Below are positions 24,395-30,053 of a stretch of 64,000 nucleotides of DNA, piece by piece. The DNA comes from Myxococcales bacterium 68-20 (GTDB lineage: Bacteria > Myxococcota_A > Polyangia > Polyangiales > Polyangiaceae): NCBI GenBank assembly GCA_001899635.1, contig MKVQ01000002.1, positions 126,198-190,197 on the forward strand, given 5' to 3'. The translations under genes and the position numbers were made by a program. The notes under the pieces were generated by a model. The model was not told the DNA's origin. It saw only the letters and a program-made list of their open reading frames with translations, and made no database searches. Numbering within the stretch: position 1 is the first letter of the stretch; each line of letters opens with the position of its first letter.

Positions 24395-24504
24395 CGCCGT
24401 GTGCCCTAGCGCTCGGCAACCGCTCGCGCGAGCGCCGATCTTACGGGGTCGACGCGAGACTGGTATGACTCGGGGATGCGCTCCGACAACGTCGCGGGTC
24501 GCTC

Positions 24505-25296
24505 CTGATCACCGTCAGTCGAGTCTCGAGCTGGACCGAGAGCGTCTTCCACGTCCTCGCGCACGTAGAGGCGCCCGGCCTCGCCGCGTCGTGCCACTCC
24601 TCGGCGTGGATCGCGTTCGCGGCGAGAGCGCTCGGGCCGGCGGCGGCGCGGTCGCTCGGCGAGGACGTCTCCGTCATCGCGCGCGCGGCGACGACGCACG
24701 ACGTGCTCGCGAGCGCGCAGGGCCTCGCGTGGGTCTTCGACTCCAGCGGCGCGTGTACGCGAGCCGGGGCGCGGGAGCTCGCAGCCCTCGAGCGCGACGA
24801 CGTCGCGAGCGTCGATGCGCTCGCACTGACCGTGCGCGCGGGCCCGATCGCGGAGGTCCTACGCGCGGCCGCGGAGCTCGAGCTCCCGCTCCTCGAAGCG
24901 CTCCCGCCGATCCCCGCCGAGGAGCTCGCGGTGATCGCGCTCGCCCTCGAAGCGACCCTCGAAGCCGCGCCTTCCCTGCCCCGCTTCACGGTGTCGGTCG
25001 CGCGGCCGCTCGGCCTTCGCGGTCGCGCGTTCGGCAGCTCGATCGTGATCGGGCTTCCCGGCATCGACTGCCCGGACGCCGAGCACGCGGCTTGGCAAGC
25101 CGCCCACGAAGCCACCGTCATGGAGGTGGCCGCGGACTCCCGTCTCTCGTTCCTCGATCTGGAGAGAAGAGCGCTCGCGCTCCTACGCTCGCGCGCCCGT
25201 GCTGCCGGCCTCGCGGAGGCCCACGGCCGCTGGCTGTCGCGGCTCGACCTCCGCGCGCTCGGACCGATCGCGGACGTAGACGACGCGTCCGAGTGA
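24505..25296 (+). CDS. Uncharacterised protein, start unclear
   Basis: The frame is open from 24469 and codon use is gene-like from about 24505, but no ATG, GTG or TTG occurs in frame before GTG 24703. CTG 24505 is one possible start. Alternatively ATG 24476, in another frame, opens a 10-codon stretch that stops exactly where this frame takes over, suggesting a frameshift or a sequence error. The 263-residue product is Ala/Leu-rich and probably soluble; W-Q-A-A-H-E-A-T-V near 210 is the only metal-site-like segment. Its last 114 bases overlap the 3' end of the radical SAM gene on the opposite strand. I recognise no family. Confidence 0.5.
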   Translation: MITVSRVSSWTESVFHVLAHVEAPGLAASCHSSAWIAFAARALGPAAARSLGEDVSVIARAATTHDVLASAQGLAWVFDSSGACTRAGARELAALERDDVASVDALALTVRAGPIAEVLRAAAELELPLLEALPPIPAEELAVIALALEATLEAAPSLPRFTVSVARPLGLRGRAFGSSIVIGLPGIDCPDAEHAAWQAAHEATVMEVAADSRLSFLDLERRALALLRSRARAAGLAEAHGRWLSRLDLRALGPIADVDDASE

Positions 25297-27426
25297 TCGG
25301 CGCACGACCTCCCCGCCGGCGCCCTTGTCGATCACGACAAGCTCACCCGAGACCGGGGCGACGAGCCTGCCGCCCGCCGCGAGCGCATCGATCCACGCGT
25401 TCGGGATCGCTCCGACGTCGAAGCCGACGCTGACCTTCCGGGCGCCGCACCAGAGCGAGGTGTCGTGGGCGTCGCCCGCGATCGCGCGGACATTGGCCTG
25501 GGATGCGAGCTCCTTCTTCGCGCGCGCCGCGAGCGCGCCGTCGATCTCGATCGTGATCACCGAGCCACGCTCGCCGACGACCCTCCCCGCGACCGCGGCG
25601 CCGTAGCCGGTGCCTCCGCCGAGGTCGACGAGGGAGTCGCCGGGCTCGAGCTCGAGGGCGCGGAAGAGCGCGACGTACGCGTGCATCGCCGAGATCGTCG
25701 CCTTGCCCGTCTCGTCGAGCGCGAGCGCGCGATCGCGGTGCGCCTCGGCGAGCACGTCGATCGGCACGAACCGCTCGCGCGGGACGTCGCGCACGGCGCG
25801 TCCGACCTCGTCGTCGAGCTCGATCCCGGCCTCCTCGAGCACTTGCTCTCGTGCAGCACGCGAGAACGCCGCGAAGGCCTGATCGGCCTCCAGCGGGATC
25901 TCCTGCAGAACGCTCGCGCGCGCGGGATCGTCGCCGTCGCCCGCCAGGATCGCGCGCCAGAGGTGGTCGAGCGCAAGCGTACGCGTGGCGGCTGCGGGGG
26001 AGATCAGGTCGACCTGCTCGTCGATCGCGCGCATGAAGTAGTCACGCGCGGGTCCGTCGTAGGCGAACGCCTTCGGGATCCCCTCGAGGATCGGCCGGAA
26101 CAGCTCGTGGCGGAGCGCATGGCAGCGGCGGAAGTCGAGCTCGCTCGACGGGTCGACCCACTCGGCGAGGAAGTCCTGATCCCCGTCGTGCCACCACGGA
26201 TAGCGATGAACACGCATCCCCGTCGACGCCTCCCACGAGGCCCGCTCCTCGTCGATCGGCGAGCCCGGGTAGAGGCGGAACGCGTCGACCGAGAGGAAGC
26301 CCGTCGTGCCGCCGGGGCCGAGGTACAGGCGCTCGAGGTACTTCACGGTCGTCCGGATCGACGACTCGGTCTCGCCGGGATGCCCGACGATGACGTTGGC
26401 TCCCCACGGCACCCCTAGCTCACGCGCCCAGCCTGCGACGCGCATCATCTGATCGAGGTAGTCGGAGAGGCGGCCGACCTTGCGGATCCTCCGGACCTGC
26501 TCGGGATCGCCCGACTCGAGGCCGAAACCGGGCGCGACGTTCGCGCGCTTCATCAGCGCGATGTCCTCCCGCTCGAGCAGATCGATCCGGACGAGCAGCC
26601 ACACCTTGCGCGCCCGGACCGGCCGCCGCGCCAGCGCCTCCAGGAACTGCCGCCGCCACGAGGTCTTCATGCCGAAGAGCGCATCCGCGATGAACAGCGT
26701 CCAGCGCGAGAGATCGAGGAACGCGTCGAGGCGGTGCATCTCCTCGATCGCCTGCTCCGGCTCGAGCGCCCGCCACGAGGTGTCGCGCTTCGCCCGCTCC
26801 ATGCAGAACGCGCAGTCGTACGGACAGCCGCGCGACAGGTAGATCTCCGCTTGCGAGGCGACCTTGCGCGCGACCGGGCGGTAGCGCGCGAGGAGCTCCC
26901 AGTCGACGGGCGGCATCTTGCCCGGATCGGCGACGGCCTCGGGGCCGAGCACGGAGAGGAGCGGACGGCTTCCCTTGACGAGCGCGCTCGCGAGCCGGCT
27001 CATCGGTCCTTCGCCGTCTCCGACGACGACGAAGTCGAACGGGGACGCTCCACCGTCCGGCGTCGCACCGGTGAACTCGGCGGGACGCGCGCTCGCGTGA
27101 TAACCGCCGGTGACGAGCCACGCCTTGGGCAGAAGGGCTCGGAAGCGGCGCCCGAGCTCGATCACCTTCAGGTAGTCGTACGACGAGTAGCAGGCGATAC
27201 CGACGAGGTCGTAGTGCCCGCCGCCCCGCGCGACGATCTCGGAGAGCACGATCGGGCCGAGCGCGCGCTCGGCATCGAGATCGACGACATCGACGTCGAT
27301 CTCGGGGGCAGCGGCGCGCATCGCGCTCGCCATCGCGAGGAGCTGCGGCACGCCGAAGTTCGCCCCGCCGGTGAAGAGACCGCCGGGCCAGACGAGGAGC
27401 GCGCGCGGTCGATCTCTCCGGCTCAC
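25183..27426 (-). CDS. B12-binding-type radical SAM protein fused to a PCMT-like methyltransferase
   Basis: 747 residues from GTG 27426. Residues 1-165 have a cobalamin-binding-type fold (G-I-A-C-Y-S-S-Y-D-Y, V-T-G-G-Y-H), without an obvious D-x-H-x-x-G. The radical SAM cluster motif is Cys201-P-Y-D-Cys205-A-F-Cys208, followed by an oxygen-independent-coproporphyrinogen-oxidase-like barrel. About 535-735 resembles protein-L-isoaspartate methyltransferase: D-V-P-R-E-R-F-V-P, G-K-A-T-I-S near 573 and the SAM-binding L-V-D-L-G-G-G-T-G-Y-G near 600. It is the last gene of the minus-strand peptide cluster, 52 bases after precursor A. The likely role is peptide or natural-product modification, using the PCMT domain to activate Asp carboxylates; inference. 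Confidence 0.82.
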   Translation of the reverse strand: MSRRDRPRALLVWPGGLFTGGANFGVPQLLAMASAMRAAAPEIDVDVVDLDAERALGPIVLSEIVARGGGHYDLVGIACYSSYDYLKVIELGRRFRALLPKAWLVTGGYHASARPAEFTGATPDGGASPFDFVVVGDGEGPMSRLASALVKGSRPLLSVLGPEAVADPGKMPPVDWELLARYRPVARKVASQAEIYLSRGCPYDCAFCMERAKRDTSWRALEPEQAIEEMHRLDAFLDLSRWTLFIADALFGMKTSWRRQFLEALARRPVRARKVWLLVRIDLLEREDIALMKRANVAPGFGLESGDPEQVRRIRKVGRLSDYLDQMMRVAGWARELGVPWGANVIVGHPGETESSIRTTVKYLERLYLGPGGTTGFLSVDAFRLYPGSPIDEERASWEASTGMRVHRYPWWHDGDQDFLAEWVDPSSELDFRRCHALRHELFRPILEGIPKAFAYDGPARDYFMRAIDEQVDLISPAAATRTLALDHLWRAILAGDGDDPARASVLQEIPLEADQAFAAFSRAAREQVLEEAGIELDDEVGRAVRDVPRERFVPIDVLAEAHRDRALALDETGKATISAMHAYVALFRALELEPGDSLVDLGGGTGYGAAVAGRVVGERGSVITIEIDGALAARAKKELASQANVRAIAGDAHDTSLWCGARKVSVGFDVGAIPNAWIDALAAGGRLVAPVSGELVVIDKGAGGEVVRRSLGRVVYVRDRSERAEVEPRQPAAVGLREAGSTGARA

Positions 27427-27478
27427 TGCTCGTCTCGCTCGAGCGCGACCACAAGCGCGACCCGCTGAGCGTCGTCGT

Positions 27479-27949
27479 TCACTGGCCCCTCGGCGGAGCG
27501 ATCTTCAGGCACGGCTGCGGAGGGGGCGTGGGCTTGCCGCCATCGGCGGTCGAAGGCGGAGCCACGCTGAGACACACCTGGGGCCGAGGTCCGCCTGGCG
27601 GCGCGGCCACCCGCAGGCACGGAACGGGCGCGGCCGCATCGGGCGGCGCGCCTGCCCCCACCGCGTCCGGCATCACGGAGCCCGCGTCGACGGGCGCGCC
27701 CGCGTCGCTCGGCAACTGCTCGGGCGGCATCGGTGAAAGACAAGGCTCGGGTCCCGCATCCTCGACGACCAGCACGGGCGAAAGACAAGGCTGCGGGGGC
27801 TGAGCCGGCTCCTTGCCACACGCGGTGCTCACGCCCGCGAGGGCGGCCGCGACGAAGCTCGCCCGTCGGGCGAGGATCCGCTTCCTCGCCTCGTCGGCGT
27901 CGCTGCGCGTTTCTTCACCGGACCGAAGCTCGGGGTCTTTCTTCTTCAC
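27479..27949 (-). CDS. Candidate precursor peptide A, five Cys-Leu motifs
   Basis: GTG 27949 overlaps the TGA of the radical SAM gene (GTGA), so it is translationally coupled to it. Of 156 residues, 20-47 hold the leader core R-K-R-I-L-A-R-R-A-S-F-V-A-A-A-L-A-G-V shared with peptides B and C, followed by A-C-G (Cys44). Then come five motifs, at Cys55 (P-Q-P-C-L-S-P), Cys70 (P-E-P-C-L-S-P), Cys111 (P-V-P-C-L-R-V), Cys126 (P-Q-V-C-L-S-V) and Cys147 (P-Q-P-C-L-K-I), in Pro/Ala/Asp-rich spacers. The leader could equally be a twin-arginine or lipoprotein signal. Function unknown; RiPP precursor is the leading idea. Confidence 0.7.
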   Translation of the reverse strand: MKKKDPELRSGEETRSDADEARKRILARRASFVAAALAGVSTACGKEPAQPPQPCLSPVLVVEDAGPEPCLSPMPPEQLPSDAGAPVDAGSVMPDAVGAGAPPDAAAPVPCLRVAAPPGGPRPQVCLSVAPPSTADGGKPTPPPQPCLKIAPPRGQ

Positions 27950-29061
27950 GCGATCACCTCGAGACGGCGTCGGGAGCGCGCCGCTTCGCGCTCGCTCGAC
28001 AGCTTGGCCGCGAACTCGTCGTCGACGTGTTGCCACACGAAGGGATCCGGGAACCTCCGCGCACCGAGCACCCACTCGGAGGCCGCGCCGCATCCGCCCG
28101 CACACGACGACGCGTGACTGCAGCCGGCGCAAAACTCGGGGAGCGTGCGCTTGTACTCCTTCACCTCGGGGCCGACGACGATCCGCGCGGGGTCGACATC
28201 CGGATCGAGGATGTCCTTCGCGCCTCCGAGCCCCGAGCCGTGGAGCGTGCAGTGGCGGAGGCGGCCGTCCGGTCCGAGCGCGAACTCCTGCATCGACGAG
28301 CCGATCGCGCAGACGCCGAACTCGAGCGGCGCGAGCTCCTCCACCTCCACCGCGCAGGGCGGGACGGGCATCGTGCAGGTGATGCGCATCCGCTCGCCGC
28401 GCTCGCCCTTCGCGAACGGGATGGCTTGCTTGAACGCCACGAGGAGATCGTCGCGCGACGGGAGGAGCTCCGCGGCGTGGCGCGCAGCGTAGCCCGCCGG
28501 GCTGAAGCGCGAGAGCGCGATGTGCCGTACGCCGAGCGACTGGAAGAGCGCGAGGATCTCCGCGACCCGCGACGCGTTTTTGCGGGTGACGACGGTGCAG
28601 CCGACGACGGGAACGCCGGCGCCGCGCAGAGCCGCGATTCCCCGGAGCGTCTTCGCGTAGTGCCCTTCGCCGCCGACGTGCTCGTCGTGGAGCTCGGCGG
28701 TCGGTCCGTCGAGCGTCACCTGCACGTAAGAAACGCCGTAGGGCGCGAGGCGCGCGGCGAGCGCGTCGTCGACGAGGCCGCCGTTCGAGATGATCTGGAT
28801 CCCGACGCCCTTCGACTTCACGAGATCGAGGAGCTCGAAGAGATCGCGACGCGCGAAGGGCTCGCCCCCGGTGATCGTGACGTGATCGACGTCGACCGCC
28901 GAGAGCAGCTTCTCGACGCGCGCGTGGAGCTTCTTCGCGCTCCCCGCCTCCATTCCGGCGCCGTTGTCCTCGCGCCAGGCGTTGTAGCAATAGGCGCACT
29001 TCTGCTGGCAGTGCGCCGTCACCTCGATCGCTACGCTGTAGACCTTCGGCCGCCCCGACAT
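27946..29061 (-). CDS. Radical SAM/SPASM peptide-modifying enzyme
   Basis: 371 residues from ATG 29061. The iron-sulfur motif is Cys18-Q-Q-K-Cys22-A-Y-Cys25, followed by I-T-G-G-E-P-F (63-69) and I-S-N-G-G. The C-terminal third has a SPASM-type Cys set (V-C-A-I-G; R-H-C-T-L-H-G; F-C-A-G-C; S-S-C-A-G-G-C) for auxiliary clusters, as in enzymes that make thioether, C-C or other crosslinks in RiPPs. Its stop overlaps the start of precursor A, and precursor B ends 40 bases upstream, so all are probably on one transcript. There is no obvious N-terminal peptide-recognition (RRE) domain. The exact chemistry cannot be read from the sequence. Confidence 0.88.
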   Translation of the reverse strand: MSGRPKVYSVAIEVTAHCQQKCAYCYNAWREDNGAGMEAGSAKKLHARVEKLLSAVDVDHVTITGGEPFARRDLFELLDLVKSKGVGIQIISNGGLVDDALAARLAPYGVSYVQVTLDGPTAELHDEHVGGEGHYAKTLRGIAALRGAGVPVVGCTVVTRKNASRVAEILALFQSLGVRHIALSRFSPAGYAARHAAELLPSRDDLLVAFKQAIPFAKGERGERMRITCTMPVPPCAVEVEELAPLEFGVCAIGSSMQEFALGPDGRLRHCTLHGSGLGGAKDILDPDVDPARIVVGPEVKEYKRTLPEFCAGCSHASSCAGGCGAASEWVLGARRFPDPFVWQHVDDEFAAKLSSEREAARSRRRLEVIA

Positions 29062-29101
29062 CGGATCGAGGCTAGCACGACCGTGCTCGCCGGCTCGTGT
29101 C

Positions 29102-29425
29102 TCAGCCGCCATCCAGCGGCGCGATGAGGCATGGCTGCGGCCCTGCCTCGGCGTCATCCTCGTCCCCGGAGTCAACCGGTACCTGGGCGTCCACGGAGAG
29201 GCACGGCTGCGGCCCCGCCTCGGCGGCATCCGCCTTGCCGAAGTCGGCATCCACGGAGAGGCACGGCTGCGGGCTCTGCTCCGTCTCGGTGTCGCCGCCA
29301 CACGCCTCGGTGGCCGCCGCGAGCCCCGCGGTCGCGGTCACCCCTGCGAGCGCGGCCGCGACGAAGCGAGCTCGGCGGGCAAGGATCAGTCGGCGTGCGG
29401 AGTCGTCACCCATGGAGGCGCTCAT
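29102..29425 (-). CDS. Candidate precursor peptide B, three Cys-Leu motifs
   Basis: 107 residues from ATG 29425, with a second in-frame ATG 12 bases on; the sequence around both (ATTGCTGAGGTATGA) is shared with peptide C. The leader M-G-D-D-S-A-R-R-L-I-L-A-R-R-A-R-F-V-A-A-A-L-A (5-27) is almost identical to that of C, and Cys42 sits in A-C-G-G in both. Three motifs follow: P-Q-P-C-L-S-V-D-A twice (Cys55, Cys75) and P-Q-P-C-L-I-A (Cys99), separated by Asp/Ala/Glu-rich spacers of about 15-20 residues. It ends 40 bases before the radical SAM gene. Confidence 0.75.
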   Translation of the reverse strand: MSASMGDDSARRLILARRARFVAAALAGVTATAGLAAATEACGGDTETEQSPQPCLSVDADFGKADAAEAGPQPCLSVDAQVPVDSGDEDDAEAGPQPCLIAPLDGG

Positions 29426-29498
29426 ACCTCAGCAATCGATCGGGCGCTACGAAGCGGGCCCCTCGCTCCGCGAGGATCCTGCGCCTCGCGTTGCTCAT
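29406..29498 (-). CDS. Leader-only mini reading frame between precursors C and B
   Basis: ATG 29498 overlaps the stop of precursor C (ATGA). The 30 codons give S-N-A-R-R-R-I-L-A-E-R-G-A-R-F-V-A, clearly related to the leader of A, B and C, then stop inside the start of precursor B without any Cys-Leu motif. It may be the remnant of a lost precursor copy, or a coupling peptide that passes ribosomes from C to B. It is not certain that it is translated. Confidence 0.4.
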   Translation of the reverse strand: MSNARRRILAERGARFVAPDRLLRYERLHG

Positions 29499-29863
29499 CG
29501 GTCCGCCGGATCCGGAGCGAACTTCAAGCAAGGCATCGGGCCGGCGTCGAAGTCGTCGTCGTCGTCCGCCGGTGGCGTGAGGCACGGCTGCGGGTCGTCC
29601 GGCTTGCGCGGAGAGAGGCACGGCTGCGGGGTCGCGTCCTTCGACGCTCCATCCGCCCCATCCGAGGCCTGCGCATCGCGGTCGCCGGCCGTCCCGCCGC
29701 CACCCGTATCGCTCTCGGTAGGGTCGAGCTCGCCGCCGCACGCGTTTACCGACGTACCGGCAACCGCAGCCGCGGTCACGCTTGCAAGCGCGGCCGCGAC
29801 GAAGCGCGCACGTCGCGCGAGGATCAGCCGCCGAGCGGAGTCGTCTCCCATGCGGGCAATCAT
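29495..29863 (-). CDS. Candidate precursor peptide C, three Cys-Leu motifs
   Basis: 122 residues from ATG 29863 (second ATG 12 bases later at the conserved M-G-D-D). The leader is the same as in B through residue 27; Cys42 lies in N-A-C-G-G. The motifs are P-Q-P-C-L-S-P (Cys82), P-Q-P-C-L-T-P (Cys94) and P-M-P-C-L-K-F (Cys112), with an acidic run D-D-D-D-D-F-D between the last two. It is the first gene of the minus-strand cluster; the promoter must lie in the 190 bases before pyrC, which is transcribed divergently. No clear -35/-10 pair was seen. Confidence 0.75.
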   Translation of the reverse strand: MIARMGDDSARRLILARRARFVAAALASVTAAAVAGTSVNACGGELDPTESDTGGGGTAGDRDAQASDGADGASKDATPQPCLSPRKPDDPQPCLTPPADDDDDFDAGPMPCLKFAPDPADR

Positions 29864-30053
29864 ACCTCAGCAATGGACCGCCGCTAGGCCCGCCACCGGG
29901 GCTCGAGTGCGCTCGTCATTGAGGACGGCGAAGCAAGCGCGTCGCGCAAAGGATCAGCTTCTTCGGGTCGTCGTCCGCCGACGAGAAAAGTATGTCTCGA
30001 CCGCCCCTACGCACGCTTCCGCCGCTCGGGCCCGCGTGCTAACTCGCGCGCCG

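Follow-up and report, generated by a model that had tools for sequence, protein, structure and literature searches.

The window analysed here, a stretch of 64,000 nucleotides from Myxococcales bacterium 68-20 (contig MKVQ01000002.1, positions 126,198 to 190,197), carries a four-part gene set: a radical S-adenosylmethionine (SAM) enzyme of the SPASM type, a B12-type radical SAM enzyme fused to a PCMT-like methyltransferase, a fourth, metallopeptidase-like protein, and peptides in which a leader ILxRRx(x)F is followed by repeated Cys-Leu (CL) motifs. The comparative sequence data show that these parts co-occur, that the substrates share one leader and that the Cys-Leu pair is under purifying selection. 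Bacteria that live in soil and water and belong to several phyla carry the gene set. We consider it likely, from sequence, that it forms a dedicated post-translational modification system, in which Cys-Leu pairs would be modified by radical chemistry at multiple sites before export. The genome concerned belongs to the Polyangia (Myxococcota) and measures 11.9 Mb; its close named relatives are Labilithrix metagenome-assembled genomes (MAGs).

Co-occurrence of the four parts

Among 317 Polyangia genomes, orthologues of the SPASM enzyme are present in 48 (46-89% identity), strong matches to a leader profile (E below 1e-5) in 49, the fourth protein in 48 and the B12/PCMT fusion in 53. All four parts are found together in 43 genomes. 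The SPASM enzyme and the leader occur jointly in 47 genomes and singly in 1 and 2 respectively, and 267 genomes have neither (Fisher 1e-52). All pairwise Fisher tests give values below 1e-38, for genomes that are not independent of one another. Where the contig continues beyond a SPASM gene, the B12/PCMT fusion almost always follows, directly or after one to three peptides. The arrangement is therefore not due to chance, as dozens of genomes repeat this order of genes, with leaders of the form ILARRxxF and cores that contain CL. The initial annotation of the locus had asked whether leader, CL motif and enzymes go together; they do so in the Polyangia and in five distant genomes described below, and its view that leader peptides and enzymes belong together is upheld by this co-occurrence.

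The distribution is patchy in the genus of the window: five of its 12 genomes are complete for the set, six lack the enzymes and the fourth gene, and one (G261) is partial. Nine genomes hold a B12/PCMT fusion and no SPASM orthologue of this clade; most of them have distant relatives (e.g. locus L091) with another leader. In G288 the SPASM gene is present and the leaders are weak.

The leader and the Cys-Leu motif

The Polyangia leaders align to the consensus D..R..ILARRARFVAAALAG...AC, in which R13, R14, A21 and C38 are invariant. A profile built from known leaders recovered peptides at most loci. A twin-arginine translocation (Tat) lipoprotein signal is composed of S/T-R-R-x-F-L-K, a hydrophobic stretch and a lipobox Cys; the Polyangia leaders read RRxxF, one residue longer than the canonical RRxF.

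In 93 post-leader regions Leu follows 311 of the 359 Cys residues, against a mean of 23 in shuffled sequences. The surrounding consensus is D-A-x-P-Q/R/M-P/V-C-L-S-P/V-P/A-P, of which C-L alone is constant, and across the 311 motifs no constant acceptor was found besides the adjacent Leu. Of the P-x-P-C-L core motif put forward by the initial annotation, the Cys-Leu part thus stands, while the preceding P-x-P is common and not fixed. Among five homologues of peptide A, the ratio of non-synonymous to synonymous polymorphism (pN/pS) is 0.14 at CL codons, 0.44 in the leader and 0.81 in the spacers; because the CL columns were chosen by the presence of Cys, these values are supporting and not an independent test.

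A genome scan recovered relatives of the SPASM enzyme (38-41%) from five distant genomes: one Aminicenantes, one Planctomycetota and three MAGs of Myxococcota/deltaproteobacterial type. CL peptides are present in all five, as are the B12/PCMT fusion (E no higher than 6e-226) and the fourth protein (E no higher than 8e-34). The Aminicenantes peptides, of 50-60 amino acids (...DEDTKAILARREEFVKRALSSKEISSVKGG-SLPGICLSIVPVDPPCLSP and a sister), keep ILARRxxF, lack the hydrophobic stretch and have a leader that ends in GG as in classical ribosomally synthesised and post-translationally modified peptides (RiPPs). For this reason the motif is not only an export signal, and a plain Tat signal was rejected as an explanation of the leader. 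The Planctomycetota and one deltaproteobacterial genome have ILNRRKFLI and ILSRRNFLI, the canonical twin-arginine form. Two distant SPASM/PCMT pairs (L088 and L091) and a SPASM-only locus (L087) have other leaders and again repeated CL motifs. From the GG-type and Tat-form leaders, and from the pairs in which other leaders precede repeated CL, ILxRRx(x)F probably serves for docking to the enzymes, fused with an export signal in most lineages, and CL would be its associated target, as far as sequence comparison tells.

L088, L091 and L087 lie in other Polyangia families. The leader of L088 and L091 is M[DN]L[KR][KR]LPPSML..., and that of L087 is different again; the L088 and L091 peptides have a conserved C-terminal tail. 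When the search was widened to the phylum to which the Aminicenantes genome belongs, 5 other genomes gave radical SAM proteins, all of them more distant. Viral contigs and plasmids yielded no relatives, hence no sign of mobile elements.

Substrates across the genome

Strong leader matches number up to 15 per genome and are spread over many contigs; the unlinked examples examined bear the identical leader type and CL motifs. Most Polyangia leaders finish in a lipobox-like AC or GC, while the outer-membrane-protein-like substrates L126, L130 and L141 have a signal-peptidase-I-like AxA region in its place. Some substrates are proteins of at least 300 amino acids that contain OmpA or PEGA/TPR regions or likely beta-barrels, the last assigned by eye because they match no named Pfam family. 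An OmpA domain is found in the leader-bearing L142, L258 and L260, and weakly in L261; L126 combines PEGA/TPR with a likely beta-barrel, and L259 looks similar and has no Pfam match. These domain-bearing substrates have one or two CL motifs each, within a Pro-rich stretch; OmpA-domain proteins with just one are among them.

The simple three-peptide RiPP cluster that had been proposed is not what these data describe: many substrates are encoded at a distance from the enzyme genes, most are lipoprotein-like and some are large. Secreted lipoproteins had been offered as the opposite reading. The lipoprotein-like signals are indeed there, but they are not opposed to a role as enzyme substrates; the two readings hold together because the substrates are unlinked, signal-bearing and in part domain-bearing.

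Several substrates have further features. In the OmpA-domain proteins of genome G302 (L142, L258, L260 and L261) the motif takes the variant form CLxC (PCLSCPMP-like, PCLKCAMP). The CL motifs of L055 (3100-3642) and L060 (5538-6230) are separated by collagen-like Gly-rich or Gly/Ala repeats. At L152 two adjacent leader/CL genes are followed by an apparent Big-type Ig-like domain, read by eye and with no Pfam match.

The two radical SAM enzymes

In 33 aligned homologues of the SPASM enzyme the radical SAM CxxxCxxC and a SPASM pattern (GxxxxC, CX2CX5CX3C) are invariant, with cysteines at C251, GxxxxC271 and C311xxC314x5C320x3C324. The final SPASM Cys was not seen in these homologues; an invariant Asp-Pro (D339) takes its place. 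The protein begins about 17 residues upstream of its CxxxCxxC. Its nearest relatives by profile and structure include ScmE, the mycofactocin maturase and PqqE, the latter being the nearest of solved structure (3.5e-21). It scores 103.7 bits against the mycofactocin radical SAM equivalog and 83.5 bits against the PqqE equivalog, and reaches the cut-off of neither (265 and 381 respectively).

The fusion protein matches Radical_SAM (4e-16) and PCMT (3.8e-27, above the gathering score) in Pfam; its B12-binding match (3e-7, 30.7 bits) is slightly under the cut-off of 32.1. It reaches no NCBIfam equivalog cut-off, including those of the full PCMT equivalogs. The radical SAM triad C201/C205/C208 is invariant in 26 homologues. 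The AlphaFold model (predicted local distance difference test, pLDDT, 89) matches AprD4, TsrM, CysS and TokK in Foldseek, and also PCMT structures. By fold and sequence the protein is thus assigned a B12-binding domain and a radical SAM core, and cobalamin binding and methylation are predicted. AprD4, its top structural match, is not a methylase. Most PCMT domains retain the SAM motif and a TISAMHAYA segment, and the SAM motif is degenerate in the related pairs L088 and L091, both of which keep CL motifs. An open reading frame (ORF) of 100-168 amino acids recurs opposite the fusion gene at 25 loci; it was rejected as the antisense of the enzyme gene.

The fourth protein

Clustering of the ORFs near the loci brought out a fourth protein family, present in the window and at many other loci, and encoded directly beside a peptide gene at several (L063, L073, L075). 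Neither Pfam nor NCBIfam gave a match. H21, R179, H206-E207 and E225 are invariant among its homologues. The AlphaFold model (pLDDT 94) found no significant match in Foldseek (E at least 2), the best being selecase, a metallopeptidase. In a second structural comparison the best twelve rows are all zincin-type metallo-hydrolases (among them YbeY, selecase, thermolysin, ProA, LTA4H, abylysin, gentlyase and PPEP-1), with Z at most 6.4, a size that according to the tool may reflect common arrangements. We call the protein metallopeptidase-like, and not a peptidase, because of these weak Z and E values and because the second His of HExxH is absent. A structural match to nuclear receptors was rejected as helical similarity.

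In the window no in-frame ATG, GTG or TTG lies between the stop at 24466 and the conserved FHVLAH segment. The first GTG, at 24703, would lose that segment. The gene may start at a CTG (24504) or an ATC, or it may be impaired in this strain.

Proposed pathway and alternative explanations

From the sequences we infer that modification occurs, which enzyme would take which step, by what chemistry and in what order, and likewise the export route and the part of the protease-like protein. In the cytoplasm the precursor would be bound through the docking motif of its leader. The SPASM enzyme would then act on Cys-Leu within the disordered part that follows the leader and is rich in Pro and Asp, most likely by an oxidative step (-2 H), giving either a thioether from Cys to the neighbouring Leu or a C-H change in the Leu side chain, the latter possibly akin to what TvgB does on Val. 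The B12-type fusion might next C-methylate at or beside the same Cys-Leu, and a carboxylate close by may be esterified by its PCMT half. The fourth protein probably trims, handles or escorts the modified precursor, and the product would be exported and in most cases lipid-anchored. That modified proteins would reach the cell envelope is suggested by the leaders of Myxococcota and relatives, which run into a lipoprotein or signal-peptidase-I export signal. More tentatively, this N-terminal tag of docking motif and export signal would direct the two radical enzymes to many unlinked lipoproteins and proteins of outer-membrane type, including those with OmpA domains, where the new residue made from Cys-Leu would serve as a built-in cofactor, cross-link or surface anchor and not as a released product. 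There is a sizeable chance that this is a new kind of envelope protein modification.

Several observations weigh against a dedicated modification system. Genome G302, a draft 98% complete, has about ten leader/CL proteins, and no SPASM, fusion or fourth gene was found in it, the PCMT search giving ordinary PCMT-type matches only. G103 (71% complete) has one strong leader match and no enzyme. Three of 93 leader-bearing peptides lack CL. Neither enzyme shows a RiPP recognition element (RRE) or PqqD domain in Pfam or NCBIfam, no structure-based RRE search having been made. In the fourth protein HE...E is invariant without the second His of HExxH, and the fold matches are weak.

If the modified Cys-Leu units of multi-copy precursors were excised by the metallopeptidase-like protein, the product would be a released small molecule or cofactor. 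The linked protease-like gene, the multi-copy cores, the short Aminicenantes precursors with GG and the kinship of the SPASM enzyme with ScmE, the mycofactocin maturase and PqqE are consistent with this. However, the E-values of that kinship reflect the shared radical SAM fold and the scores are far below the equivalog cut-offs, and the export signals and the CL motifs in OmpA- or beta-barrel-like linkers fit a retained modification better than excision; we judge this explanation unlikely. It appears quite unlikely that the peptides are ordinary RiPPs, whose cores would be cut off to act outside as bioactive peptides and whose lipoprotein-like signals would be incidental. The leader/core anatomy, the hypervariable spacers, the tandem-duplicated precursors and the GG leader of Aminicenantes all speak for them, but the recurrent neighbouring genes include none for a transporter or for immunity, the majority of leaders in Polyangia close with a lipobox-like or signal-peptidase-I-like site, and large domain-bearing proteins are among the substrates.

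PCMT-like enzymes make aspartimide or isoAsp in some RiPPs, and the initial annotation had pointed to this chemistry. Here it would take place in the Asp-rich spacers, where the radical enzymes would chiefly act too, or else on Pro, CL serving for recognition only. Asp is 3.3-fold enriched at position -6 from Cys and most PCMT domains keep their SAM motif and TISAMHAYA, but Asp is found at that position in only 31% of motifs, some substrates (L055) are nearly devoid of it, and L088 and L091 have CL motifs despite a degenerate PCMT SAM motif. The idea receives little support and we hold it improbable. Ordinary secreted lipoproteins lying by chance beside unrelated radical SAM genes would account for signal-like leaders with an invariant Cys and for the peptides of G302 without enzymes. 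This last explanation is disfavoured by the co-occurrence, which is tight genome-wide though most peptides are unlinked; with the enrichment of CL, and the same CL motif under a different leader beside related enzymes, it becomes very improbable.

Relation to known systems

The initial annotation recognised no described class in this locus, which searches of Pfam, NCBIfam and the literature bear out: no description of the enzyme pair, the leader or the motif was found in the open-access literature, subscription papers being outside the search. As in radical SAM RiPP systems, precursors with a conserved leader and a variable core are co-encoded with the enzymes. What is known of radical SAM peptide maturation comes mostly from single clusters with one small product each. 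In the present case a single set of enzymes appears to act on as many as about fifteen exported substrates scattered over a genome, some of them domain-bearing envelope proteins.

The closest system found is TVG, in which TvgB, from the subfamily of peptide-modifying radical SAM enzymes with multiple [4Fe-4S] clusters, converts Val to cyclopropylglycine in the TVGG repeats of TvgA, so that a short repeated motif is likewise modified many times by one enzyme to poly-cyclopropylglycine (PMC9062424). By analogy, TvgB offers the nearest precedent for a SPASM-family enzyme that modifies aliphatic residues repeatedly. TVG differs by its TVGG motif and by its partners, a dioxygenase and membrane transporters, and unlike the present system it has no B12 enzyme/PCMT, lipoprotein signal or scattered domain-bearing substrates (PMC9062424). 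Sactipeptides and ranthipeptides also combine a SPASM enzyme, a thioether synthase, with Cys-bearing precursors, but their enzymes often have an RRE at the N-terminus and join Cys to residues that lie several positions from it (PMC8326336); in the present peptides the Leu next to Cys is the sole constant residue, and the B12 enzyme/PCMT fusion and the fourth protein are added.

The mycofactocin and PQQ pathways, whose maturases MftC and PqqE are among the closest relatives of the SPASM enzyme, include a peptidase. They have one precursor, a PqqD-type partner and a released cofactor, whereas many exported substrates and no PqqD/RRE match were found here. His-Xaa-Ser (HxsA/HxsBC) systems, cited in PMC9062424, have a repeated short motif and paired radical SAM proteins; their motif differs from CL, one partner in the present system is a B12-type enzyme fused to PCMT, and the peptides match no HxsA family. 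The B12-type radical SAM methylases TsrM, TokK and CysS, together with AprD4, share a fold with the fusion in its N-terminal half; the present enzyme differs from them by its PCMT domain and lies below all equivalog cut-offs.

For enzymology the system offers Cys-Leu as a simple, repeated substrate in which to look for new chemistry, and it adds an unannotated protein family, that of the fourth protein. Its leader motif can be traced from leaders of the classical GG type through to lipoprotein signals, and ILxRRx(x)F with CL provides a search handle for unannotated substrates.

The locus in the window

The peptides, the leader-only frame, the SPASM enzyme and the fusion are all present where the initial annotation had placed them (Table 1), and the domains of the enzymes are borne out by Pfam and NCBIfam. 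The fourth gene, convergent with the fusion gene, lies just beyond the range it covered and had been missed. None of the peptides matched a named family in Pfam or NCBIfam.

Table 1. Features of the Cys-Leu locus, in positions of the window
Feature	Position	Strand	Description
Substrate peptide C	29498-29863	minus	122 amino acids; leader MGDDSARRLILARRARFVAAALASV...NAC; core with 3 PxPCL; leader profile E 1.9e-10
Leader-only frame	29406-29498	minus	30 codons (MSNARRRILAERGARFVA...; MSNARRRILAERGARFVAPDRLLRYERLHG); probable tandem-duplication remnant
Substrate peptide B	29105-29425	minus	107 amino acids; leader as in peptide C; 3 PQPCL; leader profile E 8.2e-10
SPASM radical SAM enzyme, putative Cys-Leu modifier	27949-29061	minus	371 amino acids; Pfam Radical_SAM 1.1e-24
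Substrate peptide A	27482-27946	minus	155 amino acids; 5 CL motifs; leader profile E 4.6e-13
B12-type radical SAM/PCMT-like methyltransferase fusion	25186-27426	minus	747 amino acids; Pfam matches in the text
Fourth component	about 24504-25296	plus	about 265 amino acids; no Pfam/NCBIfam family; metallopeptidase-like fold predicted

The GTG start of peptide A overlaps the stop of the SPASM gene (GTGA). Peptides B and C share a direct repeat of 117 nucleotides, 83% identical (29326-29442 and 29764-29880), which spans the leader and the upstream region, and the truncated leader frame sits between both copies. The leader-only frame is therefore probably a duplication remnant, and the sequence indicates that it arose with peptides B and C by local tandem duplication. 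The repeat and the truncated frame likewise point to substrate genes born and decaying recently. Protein-kinase-like and related ORFs, which cluster in 11 neighbourhoods, were left out of the set because they are not constant.

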